From: Selenobaculum gibii
GTDB taxonomy: Bacteria > Bacillota > Negativicutes > ICN-92133
Length of the DNA stretch: 64,000 nucleotides
Reading direction: 5' to 3'
Assembly: GCF_030273445.1 (NCBI RefSeq)
Contig: NZ_CP120678.1
Location: 1,527,501 to 1,591,500 of the forward strand
Part shown: positions 7,536 to 55,985 of the stretch, piece after piece
Numbering within the stretch: position 1 is the first letter of the stretch
Layout of the letters: every line of letters begins with the position of its first letter
The notes under the pieces: model-generated
The model's input: the letters and a program-made list of their open reading frames with translations, nothing else
Told to the model about the DNA's origin: nothing
The model's database searches: none
Translations under genes and position numbers: made by a program

Positions 7536-7570
7536 AAAAATAGGACTGCTTTTGCAGTCCTATTTTTATA
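7536..7570. terminator. Bidirectional terminator, YjcZ-like gene and trpG
   Basis: TAGGACTGC-TTTT-GCAGTCCTA stem-loop with A-run before and T-run after. It terminates the plus-strand peptide gene and the end of the minus-strand trp operon. Confidence 0.92.
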
Positions 7571-8132
7571 TAAACCCTAAAAAACCCCCCAAAATTTTTT
7601 CTCCATCGGGTGTCAATATGGATTCAGGATGAAATTGAATACCTTCTACTTTATAATCACGATGTCTAATTCCCATAATCATACCATCTTCAAGTTCTGC
7701 CGTAATTTCTAAACAGTCTGGTAAAGATTCTCTTTCAACAATAAGAGAATGGTATCGTCCTACCAAAATATCTTGTGATAACCCTTGATATGCACCTGTA
7801 CCTATATGTTTGACTGGTGAGGTCTTTCCATGAACAAGCTTCCCTGCCCGAATGACTTTGCCACCAAATACTTCACCAATTACTTGATGGCCTAAACAAA
7901 TACCTAATATCGGGACTTTACCCGCAAAGACTCGAACAACATCTTTACAAACCCCCGCATCATCTGGAGTCCCGGGTCCTGGCGAAATCACAATAGCTTC
8001 ATATTTTGCCGAATCAATTTCAACAGTAGTGATTTTATCATTGCGAATCACTTCAACTTCTCTTCCCATATTTGCAATCATTTGATATATGTTATACGTA
8101 AAAGAATCGTAGTTGTCAATTAATAAAATCAT
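7566..8132 (-). CDS. trpG: Anthranilate synthase glutamine amidotransferase subunit
   Basis: Class I glutamine amidotransferase that supplies ammonia to TrpE for anthranilate. It opens with MILLIDNYDSFTYNI, has the oxyanion strand SPGPGTPDDAG, the nucleophile in GICLGHQVIGE, and the His-Glu pair in EGIQFHPESILTPDG. The ATG at 8132 is chosen because GAGGAGG lies nine bases upstream; a TTG nine bases earlier is too close to it. It overlaps the trpE stop by 17 bases and is the last gene of the operon. The protein could also serve 4-amino-4-deoxychorismate synthesis (PabA role), which is common in Firmicutes with one copy. Confidence 0.95.
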   Translation of the reverse strand: MILLIDNYDSFTYNIYQMIANMGREVEVIRNDKITTVEIDSAKYEAIVISPGPGTPDDAGVCKDVVRVFAGKVPILGICLGHQVIGEVFGGKVIRAGKLVHGKTSPVKHIGTGAYQGLSQDILVGRYHSLIVERESLPDCLEITAELEDGMIMGIRHRDYKVEGIQFHPESILTPDGEKILGGFLGFI

Positions 8133-9615
8133 CGCCTTCAACCTCCTCTACCACTTGAAACATCACTTTCGCTTTTTGCAGGATTTCACCATATTCTTTC
8201 TCTGGCACAGAGTCCGCTACAATTCCCGCTCCAGCCCGAATTGTAGCACGCTCACCTTCGACTTGAATCGTGCGAATTGCGATACACATATCCATGTTTC
8301 CTTGAAAATCAATATAGCCTACAGAACCCGCATAAGATTCCCTCTTTACAGCTTCCAATTCATGAATGATTTCCATTGCTCTTACCTTTGGCGCACCACT
8401 TACTGTTCCAGCAGGAAAACAAGCTTTTAATGCATCAATTGTAGAATATTTTTGTTCTAATTGCCCTGAAACTTCCGAAACCATATGCATTACATGCGAA
8501 AACTTCTCTATTTCCATCAACTTATTTACTTTTACTGTGCCAGCTTTGCTGATTCTTCCAATATCATTTCGCCCTAAATCCACTAGCATCGCATGTTCAG
8601 CACACTCTTTTTCATCTGCCTTTAAATCTTGTGCAAGGAGTTCATCTTCTTGATTTGATACACCACGCGGTCTAGTCCCGGCAATAGGATAGGTATATAC
8701 AGTATCGCCACTTACTTTTACAAGCATTTCCGGCGATGCACCCACTAATTTTAAGTTGCCAAAATTCATATAAAACATATAGGGCGAAGGATTAATTTGC
8801 CGTAGTCTCCGATATAAATAAAATGATGGCTTTTTTAAATCACAAGTGAACTGCTTGGATAAAACAATCTGAAAAATATCGCCTGAAGCAATATATTCTT
8901 TTGCTTTCAACACTTTTTGGAAAAATTCTCTTTCTTCCTTTCCATATCGTTCACTAAAGCCTAACTTATGCCCTGAATGATATCGCTTTTCTTTTACTTT
9001 TTCTTTTTTTATCTCATTTTTGATTTGTTGGTTAATATAATAAATCTTTTCTAGTGCCGTTTGATATAAAAATTCAGTATCAATATTACGTTTATTTGGC
9101 GTCAAATAAACGATTTTTGATGTGTGCTTCAAATGATCCATGACTAAAATCACATGACATAAGAGGAATTGTCCAAGCACCATATCCTCAGGACTTTCCA
9201 TTTGCCTTATACGTTCAATCGTCTCAATCGTTTCATAAGAAAAGTATCCAACTGCCCCACCACCTAGTAATGGCATATGAAAACTTTGCCCCGCATCACT
9301 AAAATAGCTAAGATATTCTTTCACTGCCTGCATCGGACTTTTTTCGATTGTTTGACGACCATCAAATGCATCAATAACAAGCTTGTTTTTATAACAAGTT
9401 AACGTTGCAAAAGGTTCTGCACCAATAAAAGAAAATCGCCCAAAATTCGTATGCATATCCACGCTTTCTAAAATAAATCCTATATCATCGCCAACGATTT
9501 TATAATAAAGCGAAACCGGCGTCTCCATATCGGTTGAAAGCTCCGCAGTTACCGCAAGAACTTTTTCCGTTTCCGCACGTTGACAAAACTCTTTCAAGCT
9601 CGTTTCTATCCGCAT
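8116..9615 (-). CDS. trpE: Anthranilate synthase component I
   Basis: Chorismate-utilising enzyme making anthranilate with TrpG. At 499 residues it has normal length. The N-terminal half carries FILESVD, the counterpart of the LLES tryptophan feedback-binding element. The catalytic half carries PIAGTRPRG, DLGRNDIGR, GTVSGAPKVRAMEII, and AGAGIVADSVPEKEYGE. It follows trpA by one base and precedes trpG with overlap, so it sits sixth in the operon instead of first. Feedback inhibition by tryptophan is expected from the N-terminal motif, in addition to T-box control of the operon. Confidence 0.96.
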   Translation of the reverse strand: MRIETSLKEFCQRAETEKVLAVTAELSTDMETPVSLYYKIVGDDIGFILESVDMHTNFGRFSFIGAEPFATLTCYKNKLVIDAFDGRQTIEKSPMQAVKEYLSYFSDAGQSFHMPLLGGGAVGYFSYETIETIERIRQMESPEDMVLGQFLLCHVILVMDHLKHTSKIVYLTPNKRNIDTEFLYQTALEKIYYINQQIKNEIKKEKVKEKRYHSGHKLGFSERYGKEEREFFQKVLKAKEYIASGDIFQIVLSKQFTCDLKKPSFYLYRRLRQINPSPYMFYMNFGNLKLVGASPEMLVKVSGDTVYTYPIAGTRPRGVSNQEDELLAQDLKADEKECAEHAMLVDLGRNDIGRISKAGTVKVNKLMEIEKFSHVMHMVSEVSGQLEQKYSTIDALKACFPAGTVSGAPKVRAMEIIHELEAVKRESYAGSVGYIDFQGNMDMCIAIRTIQVEGERATIRAGAGIVADSVPEKEYGEILQKAKVMFQVVEEVEGDDFIN

Positions 9616-9616
9616 A

Positions 9617-10411
9617 TTATTCCTTCCTTTCGTCTAATGCTTGACGAATGGATTTAATTAAGCCAATTGCACCTGCAAAATCACTCTCTAAAATTCTCTT
9701 TACAACTGCGCTTCCAACAATCGCACCATCCGCAAATTTAGTTGCTTCAACAGCCGACGCGCCATCGCCAATCCCAAAACCAACGGCAAGCGGAATATCC
9801 GTTTGCTTACGTACCATCCGAATCACTTCATGAATCGGCGTATAATCAATTTTCCGTACACCGGTAACACCATTGACCGATACACAATAAATAAAGCCAT
9901 CTGCACTTTTACAGGTTTCAGTAATTCTTTCTGACGTTGTATTTGGCGTTACAAATTCAGCTAAATGAAAATGATGCAAACGGCAAAACTCAGCAATTTC
10001 TTTTGATTCTTCATGTGGTAAATCCGGAATAATTAATCCATCTAAGCCAGCAGTTTGAAAATCAGTAATAAATTTTTCAATGCCTACATTCATCATCGTA
10101 TTGATATATCCCATTCCGATTAAGGGAATCTGTGTATGCTCGCGCAATTTTTTTACTAGTTCTAATACCTGTTGCATCGTAGCTCCATTTTGCAAAGCTT
10201 TTACTCCGGCCTCTTGAATAACGTGTCCATCGGCAATCGGGTCGGAAAACGGAATGCCTAATTCAACAACATCAGCCCCAGCTTTTTCGGTAGCCAAGAC
10301 AAGTTCAAACGTTTTTTCAAAATCAGGAACACCTGCCATAAGATAAATGACTAACGCTTTTTTCCCTTCTTGTTTTAACCTTGCAAAAGTACTGCTTAAT
10401 CTAGACATCAT
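9617..10411 (-). CDS. trpA: Tryptophan synthase alpha chain
   Basis: Cleaves indole-3-glycerol phosphate to indole and glyceraldehyde-3-phosphate in complex with TrpB. A TIM barrel of 264 residues with [17 protein letters not shown] (catalytic Glu and Asp), [12 protein letters not shown], and the phosphate-binding [10 protein letters not shown]. The ATG overlaps the trpB stop (ATGA), indicating translational coupling. A second ATG follows at once, so the start could be one codon later. Confidence 0.96.
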
Positions 10412-11595
10412 TCTAATTCCTCCCCTAATGCTTTCGCTACCATTTGAACATCTTTATCGCCTCGTCCTGATAAACACACAACAACCGCCTGATCCTCCGT
10501 CGTCGTTGGCATCAGTGTTTCTAAATACGCCAGAGCATGTGAGCTTTCCATCGCCGGAATAATCCCTTCTGTCCTTGACAATAACTGAAAAGCGGCTAAT
10601 GCTTGTTGATCATTTACCGAAGTATACTGCACGCGATTCGTATCTTTAAAATAAGAATGTTCGGGACCAACACCAGGATAATCAAGCCCCGCTGAAATAG
10701 AATACGCTTCAATCACTTGCCCATCATCATCTTGTAAAAGATAACTATATGCACCATGTAAAACACCAGGGCGTCCTTGGCTTAAAGATTCTGCATGATC
10801 ACCATTTGCTTTTCCTCTACCTGCTGCCTCCACACCAATTTTGATAATATCTCTATCATCTTTAAATGGATAAAACATTCCCATTGCATTACTACCGCCA
10901 CCAACACAAGCTAAAATATGCGTAACTTTTCCACCTGCTAATGATTTCATCTGCTCTTTTACTTCCTTGCCGATGCAAGATTGAAAATCTCTCACAATCA
11001 TCGGATAGGGATGCGGGCCAACTACCGAGCCGATAATATAATGCGTATCTGTAATATTCGCAGCCCAGTAACGAATCGCTTCACTGGTAGCATCTTTTAG
11101 CGTCCCTGTTCCACTTGTTACCGGAATTACTTTTGCGCCAAGCAATTTCATTCGAAAAACATTTAATGATTGCCTTTCTATATCTTCTTTTCCCATAAAA
11201 ACATGACATTCTAAGCCAAACAACGCAGCAACTGTAGCACTTGCGACACCATGCTGCCCCGCTCCAGTCTCAGCAACAATACGTTTTTTCCCCATCCTTT
11301 TTGCCAAGACGGCTTGACATAAGGCATTGTTAATTTTATGTGCACCTGTATGGAGTAAATCTTCACGTTTTAAATAAATTTTTGCTTTTCCATAATGATT
11401 TGTTAACCGCTCCGCATAATAAAGTTTTGTCGGACGTCCAGCATATTCTCTTAAATACGTCCTGATTTCCTCTTGAAATTCAGCATCATTTCTATATTTT
11501 TCATAAGCTTGCTGTAATTCCATTAATACTGGCATGACGATTTCCGGTACATATTGCCCCCCATAAATTCCAAAACGCCCTTTGCTATTTGGCAT
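10408..11595 (-). CDS. trpB: Tryptophan synthase beta chain
   Basis: PLP enzyme condensing indole with serine. At 395 residues it is the TrpB1 type that pairs with TrpA. It has the opening [31 protein letters not shown] with the PLP lysine, [10 protein letters not shown], the [10 protein letters not shown] phosphate loop, and the C-terminal [14 protein letters not shown] stands a few bases upstream of the ATG. It lies between trpC and trpA and overlaps trpA by four bases. Confidence 0.97.
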
Positions 11596-11608
11596 AATAA
11601 ACTCCTCC

Positions 11609-12379
11609 TTAAAATCCTTTAACTAATGATAACTCTCTTGTTTTTGCTGCTATATTAGCGGCTTTCACTAATCCTTCGCCCACTAAAACCCCACGGATAA
11701 AGTGTTTTTTTACTCTTTCTATATCCTCTCGATTTTTTATTCCGCTCTCACTGATAATTGTTCGATTTCGATCACAATACTTTACTAAATCTAATGTATT
11801 TTGTACATCCGTTGTAAAGTTTTTTAAATTCCGATTATTAATTCCGATTAGCTCCGCCCTTGTATCATTTACCGCATTTATATCTTTTTCATCATGTACC
11901 TCAACGAGACAATCCACCCCAATCTCCCAAGCCATATGCAAATATTCTTTTAATTGCGCCGGAGATAAAATACGAGCAATTAATAAAATTGCATCAGCTC
12001 CGGCGCGCCTTGATTGATAAATTTGATATTCATCAATAATAAAATCTTTTCTCAACACCGGAAGTTTTGTAATCTCTTTTACTAAAGCAATATCCGCTAA
12101 ATTCCCTAAAAAATGTTCATCCGTATGAATAGATAAAGCCATTGCCCCATTTTTTTCATAAATTTTTGCCAGCTCCAGCACTGTATAATTCGTGCATAAG
12201 CGCCCTTTAGACGGCGATTGCAATTTGCATTCGGCAATTAAACTCCACGGCGAATTACGCATAACTTTTGATAAAGCAAACTTGCCAAAGGAAATGTCTT
12301 TTTGTATCTCTTTTAACGATAAATACTTTTTTTCTTGCTCAACAGTAATTTTTTTCTTTGCGACAATTGCATCTAACAT
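11609..12379 (-). CDS. trpC: Indole-3-glycerol phosphate synthase
   Basis: Converts carboxyphenylamino-deoxyribulose phosphate to indole-3-glycerol phosphate. It is a 256-residue TIM barrel with [60 protein letters not shown] and [11 protein letters not shown], all characteristic of TrpC. A strong ribosome site (GGAGGGTG) precedes the ATG. The gene begins 41 bases inside the 3' end of trpF. That is a long overlap, and the C-terminal tail of TrpF (basic, Cys-containing) is encoded there in another frame. Confidence 0.96.
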
Positions 12380-12998
12380 TTTTCACCCTCCGTTCCAACT
12401 CATGAACCCGCTTAATGAAGTCTATAATCTTCCCCTTTGACTTTATCCCATTACTTTCAACTCCCCCAGACACATCAACTCCTGCCGGATTTAAAACATT
12501 TATCATTTCTCCGACATTCATTTTACTAATTCCACCAGCAATGAATACCGGCAAATGAAGCTTACTTAATTTTTCCTTTGCAGTTTTCCAGTCAAAACAT
12601 CTCCCCGTCCCCCCTGCACTACCGGCTTGATAAGTGTCTATTAGTATCATATCGACAGAATATTGATAAAGAATTTTCGGATCAAAATCTTCTTTATATC
12701 GAAATGCTTTAATAATTGGATATTTAATTTTCTTGCAATATTCAATTGTTTCATCTCCATGTAACTGTACATAATCAAGATGACAGAAATCAGCGATTTC
12801 ATTTACCCTTGCTGGTTCTTCATTCATAAAGACGCCTACTTTTGCCACAGATTTTATTTCCGCACTTATCTTTGCCGCTGCTATCGGATTTATATAGCGC
12901 CTGCTGTCTGCAAAAATAAAGCCCATTAAATCAGCCTTATTTTCTTCTACTACCTTTGCAATTTCCAGAGATTGAATTCCACAAATCTTAACAAGCAT
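12339..12998 (-). CDS. trpF: Phosphoribosylanthranilate isomerase
   Basis: Catalyses the Amadori rearrangement of phosphoribosylanthranilate. It is a 219-residue barrel with the signature opening MLVKICGIQSLE (catalytic Cys), DYVQLHGDE, LIDTYQAGSAGGTGRCFDW (with the catalytic Asp) and a GGVESNGIKSKGKI phosphate region. It overlaps the trpD stop by 11 bases and trpC by 41 bases. In most bacteria trpF follows trpC; here it precedes it. The C-terminal ~15 residues run beyond the usual family end and may be an overlap by-product. Confidence 0.95.
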   Translation of the reverse strand: MLVKICGIQSLEIAKVVEENKADLMGFIFADSRRYINPIAAAKISAEIKSVAKVGVFMNEEPARVNEIADFCHLDYVQLHGDETIEYCKKIKYPIIKAFRYKEDFDPKILYQYSVDMILIDTYQAGSAGGTGRCFDWKTAKEKLSKLHLPVFIAGGISKMNVGEMINVLNPAGVDVSGGVESNGIKSKGKIIDFIKRVHELERRVKNVRCNCRKEKNYC

Positions 12999-14013
12999 TT
13001 TCTATCCCCTCACGACTAAATGCAATCAAAGCTTCCAATTTTACTAAAGCAGCACCACTGTCAATCGTTTTTTCTGCCAACCGAATACCTTCTGTAATAC
13101 TTGGTGTCTTATTTGTGATATAGAATCCTGCAGCCGCATTTAATAACACAATATCTCGTTTCGGCCCTTTTTCACCATTTAAAATTGCGCGAATAATTTT
13201 TGCATTTTCTTCAGGATTTCCCCCTTGATAATCAGCTAAAGTTCCGCGTTTAAAACCATACCTTTGCGGATCAATATGATATGTCTTCACCTTTCCATTT
13301 CGCATTTCACTTACTTTCGTTGGAAAGTTTGTTGATATTTCATCCATTCCATCCTCACTATGGACAACCATCGCTTGCTTAACCCCTATTAGGTTTAATA
13401 CTTCAGCAACTTTTTCGGTTAAGCTTTCTTCATACACACCAACCAATTGATAATCTAACTGCGCCGGATTAATGATTGGTCCCAAAAGATTAAATACTGT
13501 ACGGAACCCTAATTCCTTACGTGGATTTGCAACCACGCGCATAGCTTTATTCAACGCAGGTGCAAATAAAAACCCTATATCTAAATGTTCAATTTCTTCA
13601 CTAACTTTATCTGCCGATTTATCAACGATAACACCCAGCTGACTAAGCACATCAGCACTGCCACAAGCGCTAGAAACACTGCGATTTCCATGTTTTGCAA
13701 CAGCAACACCACCACCTGCTAAAACAAAAGCCACTGTTGTCGATACATTAAATGTCCCTTTCGTATCTCCACCTGTTCCACAAGGACAAATCACCGGTTT
13801 GCTATGCTTTACGCGATCTGCATGTTGTAGCAAGGTATGGGCAAATCCGGAAATCTCCTCGCTTATTTCACCTTTTACTTTTAAGGCTGTTAAAAATGAT
13901 CCGATCTGTGCATCTGTTGCGTTTCCATTCATAATAATTTGCATAGCTTGCCTTGACTCTTCCTGGGATAAATGTTCACCCTTTATCACTTTACTCAAAT
14001 ATTTTTTCAACAT
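12988..14013 (-). CDS. trpD: Anthranilate phosphoribosyltransferase
   Basis: Transfers phosphoribose from PRPP to anthranilate. The protein has 341 residues with the all-helical N-terminus (LSKVIKGEHLSQEESRQAM), the PRPP loop VICPCGTGGDTKGTFNVST, KHGNRSVSSACGSADVLSQLG, and FLFAPALNKAM. The ATG at 14013 is chosen because GGGGAGGG lies seven bases upstream; an in-frame start at 14052 would lie in the leader terminator. It is the first gene of the operon, directly behind the tandem T-box leader, which makes tryptophan supply depend on uncharged tRNA-Trp. Confidence 0.96.
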   Translation of the reverse strand: MLKKYLSKVIKGEHLSQEESRQAMQIIMNGNATDAQIGSFLTALKVKGEISEEISGFAHTLLQHADRVKHSKPVICPCGTGGDTKGTFNVSTTVAFVLAGGGVAVAKHGNRSVSSACGSADVLSQLGVIVDKSADKVSEEIEHLDIGFLFAPALNKAMRVVANPRKELGFRTVFNLLGPIINPAQLDYQLVGVYEESLTEKVAEVLNLIGVKQAMVVHSEDGMDEISTNFPTKVSEMRNGKVKTYHIDPQRYGFKRGTLADYQGGNPEENAKIIRAILNGEKGPKRDIVLLNAAAGFYITNKTPSITEGIRLAEKTIDSGAALVKLEALIAFSREGIENAC

Positions 14014-14041
14014 ATAAATCCCTCCCCAATAAATAAATAAA

Positions 14042-14128
14042 AAAAGAACCATCTCACCCTTACAAGGGGCGAAATAGCTCGCTGTACCACCCTAAATTCA
14101 AGATTTTTTCTTAAAAAACTTTAGAAAA
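14042..14128 (-). promoter_or_regulatory. Second T-box antiterminator/terminator module (no Stem I)
   Basis: Reading the minus strand, TTTAGGGTGGTACAGCGAG (T-box sequence, near 14078-14096) follows a short hairpin (AGTTTTTT pairing with AAAAAATCT). It is followed by a terminator stem (GAGCTATTTC...GAGATGGTTC) ending in seven T just before trpD. No Stem I or specifier loop fits in the ~40 bases separating it from the first terminator. This is a repeated T-box expression platform sharing, or lacking, a decoding domain. Confidence 0.8.
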
Positions 14129-14430
14129 TAAAAAACACCTCATCCCCTAAAGGGACGAAGTGTATTCGTTATACCACCCTAAAATTTTTCGAAAGAAAAA
14201 CTCTCCTCTTTTTCAAGTACGGGAATATCTCTAGCAATATCCGATACTCTAGCCAAATAACGGTGGCAACCGTCCCAGCCTACTCACAAAAAGCTTTTGG
14301 TGGACTCTCACAGAACCATTCGATACGCACTTTAGATCGGTCATCACACCTCTGGAAATCCAGTCACCGACTCGCTGAACAAAAGTATACCTATCTACTT
14401 TTTCCGCTCACTGATTTACAATAATCTTTA
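14129..14430 (-). promoter_or_regulatory. T-box riboswitch, tryptophan (UGG specifier)
   Basis: A complete T-box leader on the minus strand. Stem I contains the CGAATGGTTCTG segment. By alignment with known T-box specifier loops the codon UGG (14316-14318) is the specifier, i.e. tRNA-Trp. Downstream come the GAGAG and GGCTGGGACGG (Stem II/III) segments, the T-box TTTAGGGTGGTATAACGA (near 14166-14183), and a terminator hairpin (14131-14163) ending in TTTTTT. Uncharged tRNA-Trp should stabilise the antiterminator and switch on trpDFCBAEG. Confidence 0.92.
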
Positions 14431-14440
14431 ATTATTTATT

Positions 14441-14469
14441 ATAATACTGCTAATAATGTAAACTGTCAA
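14441..14469 (-). promoter_or_regulatory. Sigma-A promoter of the trp operon
   Basis: TTGACA, 17 bases, TATTAT on the minus strand: a perfect -35 with optimal spacing. The -35 hexamer contains the TGA stop codon of comEC (14466-14468), so promoter and upstream gene are packed without any gap. Confidence 0.9.
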
Positions 14470-16859
14470 GGATTTTTTCGAGAATTTTTACCGTTTTTTT
14501 GAAAAGAATCTACCGATAGTTGATTTCCATTTGTCTCCATTAAAATTGCCCCCGCCTGGTCGGTACGCAAAATCTTAATATTTTCTTTATTTAATCTATT
14601 TAACACTTGCGGATTTGGATGACCAAAGCTATTCTGAAAGCCAACAGAAATAATTGCATATTGTGGATTTACCGCTTGTAAAAACTCTTCACAAGAAGAG
14701 GTACGCGAGCCATGGTGGGCAACTTTTAACACCGAACTTTTCAATCTATGTTTTCTCATTAATTCTTTCTCCCCATTACTGTCTATATCCCCTGTAATGA
14801 GTAGACTAAAATCTCCATAACTCACACGAAATACATTAGAAATTTCATTCCCTGTTCGCGACTCACTCACTTCGCCCGCCGAAAAAATTTCAATTTTAAC
14901 ACCATCCAAAACAAAAAACTGGCCATCTTTTACCGTAACAAAATCTTGGCATTTTTCTAAGGAATAGCCTAATGTTTTTGCATATTCACTTCGGTCTTCC
15001 CGACCGACAATCACATTTTGCACTGAAAATTCTTTTAGTAAACTCCCTGCCCCACCTGCATGATCCTCGTGTGCGTGAGTTAAACATAAATAATCAATTT
15101 CTCGTATTCCATAATGATGCAAATATGGAATAACAATTCGTTTGCCAATATCAAAATCACTAATTTCGCGTCGCATGCCTCCGGTATCAAATAGCATCGT
15201 TCTACCATGTGGTGTCGTAATCAATATAGAATCCCCCTGCCCGACATCAATGAAATGTATCCTTAACGGTTGAGCAAAGATAAATTGACTGCTCCATAAA
15301 AAAATAATGGTGACAATTGCACTACAGATAAGCTTTTTCTTTTTCCGCCAGCACAGCAAAAAATTTGGAATTTTCGGTGATGCATAACCGCAGAGCCAAA
15401 ATAGCAGCAAATAATATACAATGCCACAAAGTAAACCGCCTGACGGTAAATATAAAAGCCCATAAGGAATCATCGCCATAGCTCTTGCCATAAAATAAAC
15501 TAACCCAATCGTCAAACTACAAAGAATAAATAGACCTTTTCCCACAACCGAAAAAACAAGACTTAATAAAACTGCACACAAGCCACCAATCATTGCCCAT
15601 TCTATAAACGGCACAATAATAAGATTTGCCAATAGTGCACTAAGCGAAACATTATTAAAATACCAGGCAATAAAGGGAATGACTGCTAATTGTGCAGCAA
15701 TCGTAATCGCTAAATTTTCCGCAATAAATAGAGGAACTCCCTTTAAAATATTTTTTATTTTAGGCGCGATATACAGTAATCCGGCTGTCGTCATAAATGA
15801 AAGTTGAAAACTAATGTCAAAAATTAATCTAGGGGAAATAGCTAAAATCCCCAACCCTGTCAAAGCTAAACTATAACGCGCATCTTTCTCCCGATTCAAT
15901 GCCAATGCCGAAAACGCTAAAATCCCCATAATCGCCGATCTGACTACCGGCGAAGTAAAGCCTGAAAAAATCGCATAAAAAACAATTGCTAGAATAACAA
16001 GAATTGCTGATAGGCACGCTGGAAATCGTAACATTTTCCCAATAATATGTACGGTTCCTGCCAATAGAGAAATATGCGAACCGGACACCGATAAAATATG
16101 AACGATTCCTGTCACCGTAAATGCTAGCGCTAGTTCCTCTTTTATTCCATCATATCCGCCAAATAACATTGCAAATAATGCTGCCGCATCTTCTTTGGGC
16201 ATTGCTTCTTCCATCATATTCTGAACTGCTGTTCTGGATTTTTCAATCCATTTAAGAAAAGCGTTTTGTCCTGATGAAAGAATTTCCACCGTATTTTTTT
16301 CGGCTTTACAATTTGCTCGAATCCCTTGTCGTTGCATCATCGCAACTATATCTAAACTTCCCGGATTATTATATCCATGTAATTCTCTAATTTCCCCTGA
16401 AAAACGAATACAATCGCTAATATGCGCAATCGTATGCGAGCTATCCTGCAACGCAAAGACTTTTAAGTTTCCGTTTACCTGTACTTTCTCCCCCGCAAAT
16501 TCTACTGTATGAACCTCTACAATATAATGCATACTTCGCTTGTTCCCCGCAAGCGTTCTTTCTTGTGGAATCTCTATAACTTCACCTTGCACTTGCAGCG
16601 TTTTATCAACAAAATTGCTAATGTCATTCGGGGCAATGCTATCTGCCTGCGCACAACGAATCATTCCCGCAATAAAAAATAGCAACAATACAAAATAAAG
16701 AAGCAATTTTTTATTTTTCCAATATAAATAAATACAACCAAATAAAGCAATACAAAAGGAACTATACAGGATAAGAAAAGGGATTTTTACCTGAGTTACT
16801 GTAAAAATCCCTAAAATAAATCCACCAATAAGAGCGTTAGTAAAAGCTAAATAATTCAT
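14466..16859 (-). CDS. comEC: DNA internalisation competence protein ComEC/Rec2
   Basis: Membrane channel for single-stranded DNA uptake. The 797 residues comprise N-terminal membrane helices with a DUF4131-type soluble loop, the polytopic Competence domain (about 230-500, including the typical HILSVSGSHISLLAG and GFTSPVVRSAIMG), and a C-terminal metallo-beta-lactamase domain with DVGQGDSILI, LFDTGG and THAHEDHAGG. The MBL metal ligands are present. Its ATG overlaps the comEA stop (ATGA). All parts are intact, so competence-related DNA transport is plausible, although natural transformation is not shown. Confidence 0.95.
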   Translation of the reverse strand: MNYLAFTNALIGGFILGIFTVTQVKIPFLILYSSFCIALFGCIYLYWKNKKLLLYFVLLLFFIAGMIRCAQADSIAPNDISNFVDKTLQVQGEVIEIPQERTLAGNKRSMHYIVEVHTVEFAGEKVQVNGNLKVFALQDSSHTIAHISDCIRFSGEIRELHGYNNPGSLDIVAMMQRQGIRANCKAEKNTVEILSSGQNAFLKWIEKSRTAVQNMMEEAMPKEDAAALFAMLFGGYDGIKEELALAFTVTGIVHILSVSGSHISLLAGTVHIIGKMLRFPACLSAILVILAIVFYAIFSGFTSPVVRSAIMGILAFSALALNREKDARYSLALTGLGILAISPRLIFDISFQLSFMTTAGLLYIAPKIKNILKGVPLFIAENLAITIAAQLAVIPFIAWYFNNVSLSALLANLIIVPFIEWAMIGGLCAVLLSLVFSVVGKGLFILCSLTIGLVYFMARAMAMIPYGLLYLPSGGLLCGIVYYLLLFWLCGYASPKIPNFLLCWRKKKKLICSAIVTIIFLWSSQFIFAQPLRIHFIDVGQGDSILITTPHGRTMLFDTGGMRREISDFDIGKRIVIPYLHHYGIREIDYLCLTHAHEDHAGGAGSLLKEFSVQNVIVGREDRSEYAKTLGYSLEKCQDFVTVKDGQFFVLDGVKIEIFSAGEVSESRTGNEISNVFRVSYGDFSLLITGDIDSNGEKELMRKHRLKSSVLKVAHHGSRTSSCEEFLQAVNPQYAIISVGFQNSFGHPNPQVLNRLNKENIKILRTDQAGAILMETNGNQLSVDSFQKNGKNSRKNP

Positions 16860-17580: not shown

Positions 17581-20061
17581 TTATTTTACTACAATATTCA
17601 CAATTTTATTTGGTATACAAATTACTTTAACAACTTTTTTCCCATCAATAGCAGCTTGTACTTTATCCTGTTGCATTGCTTTTTCTTCTAAAGCTTTTGC
17701 ATCAAGACCAGCAGCTACAATAATTTTATCCCGAACCTTGCCATTTATTTGCAGAACTATTTCTACCTCATCTAAAACAGTAGCTGCTGCATCATATTCA
17801 GGCCATTTTTCTTTATGAACACTGCCTTCACTGATTACTTCATTCCATAATTCTTCTGTAATATGTGGAGCAAAAGGCGCAAGTAAACGAAGTAATGATG
17901 AAATAACTTCGCGCATCAAACTATCATTTAATGCTTCGCCTTTGTCTTTTGCTGTATAAATTGCATTGACTAATTCCATGATTGAGCTAATTGCGGTATT
18001 GAAGTTAAATCGATTTCCAACATCCTCAGTTACCTTTTTAATTGTTGTATGAAGAACACGGCGCAACTCTTTTTCAACTTTTGTCAGCGTAGTTACATCA
18101 TATATAGCTTCGCCCTTCGTTACAGATGCTGCAAAATGATCAACAATACGCCATACTCTGCCTAAGAAACGATGCGCTCCTTCTACCCCTTGATCGCTCC
18201 ATTCCAAATCGCGTTCCGGTGGAGCAGCAAACAACATAAATACACGTGCAGTATCCGCACCATATGTGCCGATAATTTCTTCCGGAGAAACAACGTTTCC
18301 TTTAGATTTCGACATTTTTGAACCATCTTTAATTACCATTCCCTGGGTAAGTAAGTTTTTGAAAGGTTCATTAAAGTTTACTAACCCTGCATCTTTTAAC
18401 ACTTTGGTAAAGAAGCGTGAATAGAGTAAATGTAAAATCGCATGTTCAATTCCACCGATATATTGATCTACCGGCATCCAGTAGTTTGCTTTTTCACTAT
18501 CAAATGGCATTTTCTCATTTTTCGGGTCGGTGTAGCGCATATAATACCAGGAAGAACAAATAAACGTATCCATTGTATCCGTTTCACGACGTGCTTTCCC
18601 ACCACATTTTGGACAAGTACAATGTACAAATTCTTCAACTTGTGCTAATGGAGACACTGCACCAGCTTCAAAATTCACATTAGCTGGAAGCATTACTGGC
18701 AAATCTTCTTTTGGTACAGGAACAACACCACAGTCTGGACAATAAATTACAGGAATCGGCGCGCCCCAATAACGTTGACGGGAAACTAACCAATCTCGAA
18801 GACGATAGTTTACGCGACGTTTCCCAATATTATTTTTTTCTAACCAATCTAAAATGGCAACTTTTGCTTTTTCTACTGTCATTCCAGTAAATTCACCAGA
18901 GTCAACTAAAACCCCATCTTCGGTATAAGCATTTGTCATCTCATCTAATACTAAAGTTTTTCCTTCTGGAACTACTACAATTTTCTTTTGCAAATTATAT
19001 TTATTTGCAAATGCCCAATCGCGCTCATCATGCGTAGGTACACCCATAACTGCACCAGTACCATATTCATATAATACGTAATTTGCAATCCAGATTGGTA
19101 CACGTTCACCAGTGAACGGATTTACTGCATATTCCCCTGTAAAAATGCCTTCTTTTTCAACATCAGTAGCAGTACGATCAAGTTCACTTTGGTTGCGTAC
19201 CTTCTCCATAAAAGCCCTGATTTGTGCTTCGTTTTCTTTACCTGAAATCAACTTTTCAACCATTGGATGCTCTGCAGCCAAGACGACATAGCTTACGCCA
19301 AATACCGTATGTTGACAAGTTGTATAAACGGGTATTTTCTCTTGGATTGACGGAACATCAAAACTAAATTCTGCACCCTCACTGCGACCAATCCAATTTT
19401 CCTGCATCGTTTTTACTCGATCCGGCCAACCTTTTAACTCTTTTAAATCTTCAAGCAATACATCAGCATAATCAGTAATTTTAAAGAACCATTGTTCCAG
19501 CTCTTTTTTTACAACTTCTGAATCACAACGCCAGCATTGTCCATCGATAACTTGCTCATTTGCCAATACCGTATTACATTGATTGCACCAATTCACAGCC
19601 GCTTTCTTTTTATATGCTAATCCTTTTTCATAAAACAATAAGAATAACCACTGCGTCCAACGATAATATTCCGGCGTACAAGTCGCTACTTCACGATCCC
19701 AATCGTAAGAAAGTCCAATTTCACGTTGTTGCCGACGCATATTTTCAATATTTTTAAATGTCCATTCAGCAGGCTGTACACCATGTTTAATTGCCGCATT
19801 TTCCGCCGGCATTCCAAATGCATCCCACCCCATCGGATGAAGTACATTAAACCCTTGCATTGCTTTATATCTAGCAATAACATCACCGATAGAATAGTTA
19901 CGAACATGCCCCATATGTAAATTTCCTGATGGGTAAGGGAACATTTCAAGTACATAATATTCTGGTTTCTGTCTATCAAGTTCTGTTTTGAATGCACTGT
20001 TTTCTAACCATTTTTCTTGCCATTTGCGCTCAATCTCTTGCGGAGAATATTTTTCGTTCAC
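17581..20061 (-). CDS. leuS: Leucyl-tRNA synthetase
   Basis: Class Ia synthetase charging tRNA-Leu. At 826 residues it has the bacterial LeuRS length. The HIGH-type motif is [15 protein letters not shown] (about 42-56). A zinc ribbon (CNQC...CWRC) is near 160-180, and the CP1 editing domain spans roughly 225-415. The KMSKS motif is [12 protein letters not shown] (about 575), followed by the anticodon-binding domain and C-terminal extension. Translation starts at GTG with AAGGAGG seven bases upstream. It is monocistronic behind a CUC-specifier T-box, so it responds to uncharged tRNA-Leu. Confidence 0.97.
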
Positions 20062-20144: not shown

Positions 20145-20400
20145 GAATAAATAAAAAAATCCCTTGGCATATTGCCAGGGACGATTATATCGCGGTACCA
20201 CCCTGATTGACACCTCTCTTAGATGTCCTCTCATTTATGCTTGTAACGCGAATCAGCGTCGGCCATTAGCCGAATCTCCATAGCGAGTTCAACTTTTTTA
20301 CATATTGGCTCACATCACCCGCCAACTTTCTGTGCTGCAAATAAAGTTTACTACTCTATTTCATCGAATGATAAAAAATTTTAGTAAAATACTATACATT
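20145..20400 (-). promoter_or_regulatory. T-box riboswitch, leucine (CUC specifier)
   Basis: On the minus strand, Stem I contains GTTGAACTCGCTATGG, giving the specifier CUC (20285-20287, Leu). The consensus T-box AGGGTGGTACCGCG lies at 20190-20203. The terminator TCCCTTGGCA/TGCCAGGGA (20160-20181) ends in a T-run. It regulates leuS by tRNA-Leu charging. Confidence 0.93.
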
Positions 20401-55746: not shown

Positions 55747-55985
55747 TCTCGTCCCTGTAACATACATTGTTACAGGGACGAGATATACATTCCCGCGGTT
55801 CCACCCTGATTGGCATATTGCCCACCTTATAAATATTGTGAGGTTTACTCGCTTACGCTTTCCTCTCACGGCTTGGGAACGCCTTCACCTAAATTGTCAA
55901 GCTTTCACTATCCTCGACTCGCTAAGATTAGGATACTACTTTCCTTCATTGCCTTCATCAAAACTAAGACTAAATCTACTATATA
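55747..55985 (-). promoter_or_regulatory. T-box riboswitch, glycine (GGC specifier)
   Basis: On the minus strand the Stem I segment GGTGAAGGCGTTCCC gives the specifier GGC (55881-55883, Gly). The consensus T-box AGGGTGGAACCGCGG is at about 55793-55807. The terminator TCTCGTCCCTGTAAC/GTTACAGGGACGAGA (55747-55783) has a T-run. Glycine T-boxes lack Stem II, in line with the short spacer here. Confidence 0.95.

Follow-up and report, generated by a model that had tools for sequence, protein, structure and literature searches.

A partially tandem T-box leader before trpD in Selenobaculum gibii, with a predicted Stem III strand swap between its two platforms

Leaders with serial T-box platforms

T-boxes with duplicated terminator-antiterminator elements were reportedly announced by Vitreschak et al. 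in 2008 (RNA 14:717). The literature recognises partially tandem T-boxes (PMC7583486), in which a single Stem I with its specifier precedes two successive T-box/antiterminator/terminator units. A normal T-box discriminator has the form 5'-RRRNG-Stem III-AA-3' followed by the antiterminator (PMC7778990; the motif is also given in PMC7583486), and an antiterminator that lacks Stem III shows hardly any tRNA binding (PMC7583486). How a T-box platform lacking a Stem I works is posed as an open question in a specialist review (PMC7583486).

Complete tandem trp T-boxes of Bacillota (PMC12452182; Gutierrez-Preciado et al. 2007) also precede the trp operon, with serial terminators, tRNA-Trp as the ligand and a proposed sharper response. 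However, each of their units has its own Stem I and specifier, whereas in the leader described here only the first unit does. Tandem riboswitches with multiple expression platforms (PMC9481103) likewise make serial decisions on one ligand with a pseudo-cooperative logic; they have an aptamer for each platform, but the present leader has one aptamer for two.

The leader lies upstream of trpD in a 64,000-nucleotide stretch of the S. gibii genome (the window). It has a single Stem I upstream of two T-box/antiterminator/terminator units, and it is an ordinary member of an existing kind, the partially tandem T-box. It shares the architecture of that kind; what goes beyond the published descriptions consulted is a predicted composite helix between the linker and Stem III and the tuning of the unit 2 discriminator. 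A literature search found no description of Stem III pairing with the second unit, though it may have been noted earlier. The useful outcome is a testable mechanism, with comparative support, for a known T-box class.

Structure of the trpD leader

The trp operon has the order trpD-F-C-B-A-E-G (7566-14013, minus strand). The anthranilate synthase genes trpE and trpG are at the end of the operon, not at its start. The parts of the leader are listed in Table 1. An Rfam covariance search returned one match to RF00230, which covers the full model (1-219) with 100.2 bits (E 5e-23; gathering score 93), and two terminators were found by a terminator scan where 0.4 were expected. The initial annotation had described one full UGG T-box and a second platform without Stem I or specifier before trpD, and this description holds. 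Rfam matches below threshold in the leader region (PyrR, tsr24, microRNAs) were set aside as chance.

The second T-box sequence, AGGGTGGTACAGCG (= AGGGUGGUACAGCG), occupies 14093-14080 and follows the first at a distance of 87 nt. Its bulge is 7 nt long and its antiterminator has a complete partner strand, UCGCCCCU. Both units have a T-box sequence with a UGGN bulge and an antiterminator and a terminator which are predicted from sequence to be mutually exclusive. Paired T-box cores at this spacing with a T-run between them occur once in the window and in 0/100 shuffles; in the entire 2.68-Mb genome there is one pair with an intervening T-run. A hidden second Stem I, for which a covariance-model check had been proposed, is ruled out because only ~35 nt separate U-run 1 from T-box 2, which leaves no space for it, and because a permissive covariance search of 13990-14480 gave no second T-box match. 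The second Stem I and specifier that define a complete tandem T-box are therefore absent.

Table 1. Parts of the trpD leader (positions in the window)
Feature	Position	Strand	Basis or remark
Strong promoter-like site TTGACA-17-TATTAT	14469-14441	-	consensus matches 11/12
Complete T-box riboswitch, unit 1 (Stem I, II, IIA/B, III, antiterminator 1)	14148..14420	-	RF00230
Specifier UGG (Trp)	14318-14316	-	GAA-UGG lines up with GAAauuc of the Rfam model
Purine string AAGAGGAGAG, 5' of Stem III	14201..14210	-	sequence; the leader's only copy, equivalent to the RRRNG of the discriminator motif
Stem III of unit 1, local hairpin GAGUUUUUC-UUUC-GAAAAAUUUU; alternative partner, the linker	14181..14203	-	folding
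T-box 1 / antiterminator 1: AGGG, UGGUAUA bulge, ACGAA/UUCGU, AGGG/CCCU	14151..14180	-	sequence and Rfam alignment
Terminator 1 (14163-14135), with U-run	14129..14163	-	13-pair stem, loop of 3, T-run; -19.6 kcal/mol
Linker, ending ..UUGAAUUU before T-box 2; second strand of predicted composite Stem III	14094..14128	-	folding and comparison
T-box 2 / antiterminator 2: AGGG UGGUACA GCGA...UCGC CCCU	14065..14093	-	sequence
Terminator 2 (14080-14046), with U-run	14039..14080	-	14-pair stem and T-run; strong
Ribosome-binding site GGGGAGGG	14020..14027	-	sequence
trpD, first gene of operon	12988..14013	-	TIGR01245, 2e-121

Elsewhere in the window, a strong single T-box (20174-20373, minus strand, 129.5 bits) lies upstream of the gene at 20061, which reads as a leucyl-tRNA synthetase. 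Another T-box match (55771-55958, minus strand, 74.8 bits) is under the Rfam cut-off; it is just upstream of putative glycyl-tRNA synthetase alpha and beta chains (55687-52753) and is probably a short glycine T-box without Stem II.

Pairing of the linker with Stem III in the window and in related leaders

The local hairpin of Stem III alone has a folding energy of -6.8 kcal/mol. In folds that include the linker, the pairing between it and the Stem III region joins GAGUUUUUCUU to AAGAAAAAAUC and CGAAAAAUUUUAG to CUAAAGUUUUUU, with a pair probability of ~1 between linker and Stem III. The minimum free energy from Stem III to linker is -39.7 kcal/mol, a gain of 9.0 over separate Stem III, terminator 1 and linker, in a folding that leaves out tRNA, magnesium, co-transcriptional kinetics and the IIA/B pseudoknot. 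The predicted product is a long alternative Stem III that is capped by terminator 1. Its 5' strand begins beside the leader's one purine string, and its 3' strand runs up to the AA that precedes antiterminator 2. By sequence and by folding in context, unit 2 has no purine string and no local linker hairpin; a Stem III directly 5' of antiterminator 2 arises solely as the predicted composite with the Stem III of unit 1. Structure prediction of the second unit had also been proposed as a check: antiterminator 2 proved complete, and its predicted Stem III is not local but shared with unit 1. The window helix is A/U-rich, and by itself it reaches p ~0.01-0.05 (13/1000 shuffled linkers equalled the window fold).

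The initial annotation considered this arrangement unusual, which the distribution of the double-platform pattern contradicts, as does the recognised status of partially tandem T-boxes. The pattern is found in 84/380 genomes of the class (22%) and in 44/102 genera; a reversed-pattern control gave zero in all listed genomes. A scan of other contigs gave at least 119 matching stretches. Carriers among the matches listed include Sporomusa, Phascolarctobacterium, Dialister, Megasphaera, Clostridium, Desulfosporosinus, Alicyclobacillus and Paenibacillus. Contig matches in Bacteroidia, Rhodanobacteraceae, Thalassospira and others seem to be due to chance and were removed by a T-box consensus filter. 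According to their translations, the first downstream genes are trpD/F/E/B, serC, serA, sodium:solute symporters (SSS), NSS transporters, asparaginyl-tRNA synthetase and others. The specifiers are UUC (Phe) and UAC (Tyr) in most of the sodium:solute symporter leaders that were aligned.

The comparison set comprised 134 non-redundant loci out of 173 unique pattern matches; the S. gibii genome is the sole member of its family in the set, and close relatives of this exact leader lie outside the comparison. The search pattern did not include the 3' strand of antiterminator 2, CG[TC]CC; this strand stands downstream of the second T-box at 133/134 loci (4% expected), and a T-run follows at 130/134. 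Some leaders have three serial platforms (L057, L124, L138 and L142, from Paenibacillus alvei, Lysinibacillus and other NSS-transporter leaders, and also L081), visible as two overlapping pattern matches ~90 nt apart. In the NSS leaders of this type, each unit seemingly has its own small Stem III hairpin. In genomes of the class that are putatively Veillonellales, several neighbouring multi-platform leaders precede LivK/LivH-like amino acid ABC transporter genes (G327:C7, G328:C6 and G330:C13; L215, L218 and L223).

Complementary segments comparable to those in the window occur in relatives, for example AAGTTTGTTTTAC/GTAAAACGAGCTT (L180), GTGTTTAT/ATAAACAC (L120), GAAGTAAAT/ATTTACTTC (L160) and TGATGGCATA/TATGCCATCA (L058). 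G+C content distorted the comparison of raw duplex energies with those for other leader segments; z-scores against shuffles and swaps within gene groups were used instead. In the swap test, the duplex of each Stem III with its own linker was compared with those formed with linkers from the same gene group. Matched duplexes were stronger in the trp leaders (mean z -1.99, p=4.8e-7, n=22) and in those of the aromatic SSS symporters (z -2.71, p=1.2e-4, n=13), whereas the same linkers gave z -0.12 and 0.03 with other leader segments. For serA leaders the duplex was not significant (p=0.23), and Bacillales NSS-transporter leaders were null within their group (z 0.37).

Folding in context gave a similar picture. 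The fraction of the linker paired to Stem III was 0.38 in the relatives against 0.18 in shuffles (p=1.3e-20, a value inflated by kinship); real and shuffled values were 0.44/0.24 for trp, 0.64/0.34 for SSS, 0.33/0.13 for serC, 0.37/0.18 for serA and 0.30/0.17 for the others. Among 35 single-platform T-boxes from S. gibii and seven related genomes, the fraction was 0.10 vs 0.10 in shuffles (p=0.71). Linker pairing exceeded 0.4 in 46% of tandem leaders and in 0/35 single-platform ones (p=4e-11 for the difference). The linker also pairs the GGGTGG of T-box 1 (0.52 vs 0.28 shuffled, p=9e-12), and the AA that comes right after the composite helix, before T-box 2, is nearly invariant (trp, 20/22 and 18/22; SSS, 13/13 and 13/13). 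A duplicated local Stem III as the source of the complementarity is ruled out for most groups, as local pairs within the linker are fewer than in shuffles (0.02 vs 0.14 for trp); the three-platform NSS leaders of Bacillales may have simple duplicated Stem IIIs. A minority of loci lack a strong composite helix. It should be noted that the relatives share ancestry, so the p-values are overstated; the swap test and the single-platform control are least affected. Explicit double substitutions at aligned positions are few (36/1049 shared pair comparisons); the case for the helix rests mainly on the swap and shuffle tests.

A strand-swap model and its alternatives

Both platforms, the composite helix with its covariation and the tRNA tuning of platform 2 were computed. 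They are best accommodated by a model, which we regard as fairly probable, in which one decoding domain serves two successive checks of the acceptor end, linked by a swap of Stem III strands. Uncharged tRNA-Trp on Stem I would first stabilise antiterminator 1. If transcription continues beyond terminator 1, the nascent linker would pair with both strands of Stem III and open T-box 1. One long composite Stem III would result, with terminator 1 at its tip, harmless behind the polymerase. This would rebuild the motif of purine string, Stem III, AA and antiterminator, but antiterminator 2 would now occupy the position that antiterminator 1 had held. Antiterminator 2 would sit beside the same purine string and Stem I, and the acceptor end of the bound tRNA would be tested again. 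Because the linker is transcribed only once terminator 1 lies behind the polymerase, its pairing comes too late to affect the first decision; its possible effects are limited to resetting unit 1 and preparing the second decision. Two successive positive readings would be needed for expression of the trp operon, giving less leak and a sharper response. We infer that the same tRNA is handed over and checked twice, although it may instead be exchanged on Stem I between the checks. A point against such a relay is that it requires antiterminator 1 to release a tRNA that may be bound there stably.

The tRNA end of the interaction bears on the choice between readings. G73 tRNAs (Trp, Ser) pair with C or U at the last position of UGGN, and A73 tRNAs (Phe, Tyr) with U only. 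S. gibii carries three genes for tRNA-Trp(CCA), and the one whose full sequence was read (L236) ends in G73-CCA. Its GCCA pairs with the UGGU of both platforms, with a G-U wobble at the discriminator base. In platform 2, the final base of UGGN is C in 47/64 Trp/Ser leaders and in 0/19 of the Phe/Tyr type (Fisher p=3e-9, uncorrected for kinship; the Trp discriminator was read here, and the identities for the relatives are general knowledge). The base follows the cognate discriminator. The initial annotation had raised the possibility of a decoding-free unit which senses the NCCA end of any uncharged tRNA; such a platform would show no tuning of UGGN to the cognate discriminator, and this reading is disfavoured, the more so as the linker rebuilds Stem III from unit 1 sequence. 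A wider version, in which platform 2 has no connection to Stem I and captures the NCCA end of another uncharged tRNA molecule (any tRNA, or a second tRNA-Trp), has in its favour that platform 2 lacks a Stem I and specifier of its own and that an acceptor end can pair with UGGN through simple complementarity. It is nevertheless distinctly unlikely: UGGN tracks the cognate discriminator and not the common A73, there is no separate Stem III here to support binding, which an antiterminator alone hardly achieves (PMC7583486), and the composite helix is left unexplained.

Partial duplications arise easily, and a second strong terminator would reduce basal expression. Terminator 2 could on these grounds be a tRNA-blind device that merely cuts leakage, with antiterminator 2 a relic of duplication. 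Retention of the antiterminator 2 strand at 133/134 loci across phyla, the tuning of platform 2 and the conserved AA all speak against this; moreover, a tRNA-blind terminator 2 would block induced expression as well. This explanation is judged very unlikely. The composite helix itself is common ground with another reading, in which it merely dismantles unit 1, isolates unit 2 for folding or protects the RNA end, and a second tRNA-Trp binds Stem I afresh for antiterminator 2. The opening of T-box 1 by the linker would also suit this, but the helix ends are placed as in a normal discriminator, with the purine string at the 5' side and AA and antiterminator 2 at the 3' side. We consider it unlikely, if somewhat less so than the others. 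Among the options in the initial annotation, sensing of the same tRNA and a second gate are those predicted to fit best, and they fit jointly.

For the strand-swap model in its general form, we incline, by a little, towards accepting that the Stem III swap hands the same Stem I-bound tRNA to the second antiterminator, so that one aptamer makes two sequential, proofreading-like decisions, and that this mechanism operates generally for Trp, Ser and aromatic amino acid genes, both in Negativicutes and in other Bacillota. The comparative signal offers a concrete helix which can be mutated. If the model is true, it would answer how a platform without Stem I works, and one riboswitch aptamer would serve two expression platforms through strand exchange. 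It would also give steep control of the most expensive amino acid pathway from one sensor.
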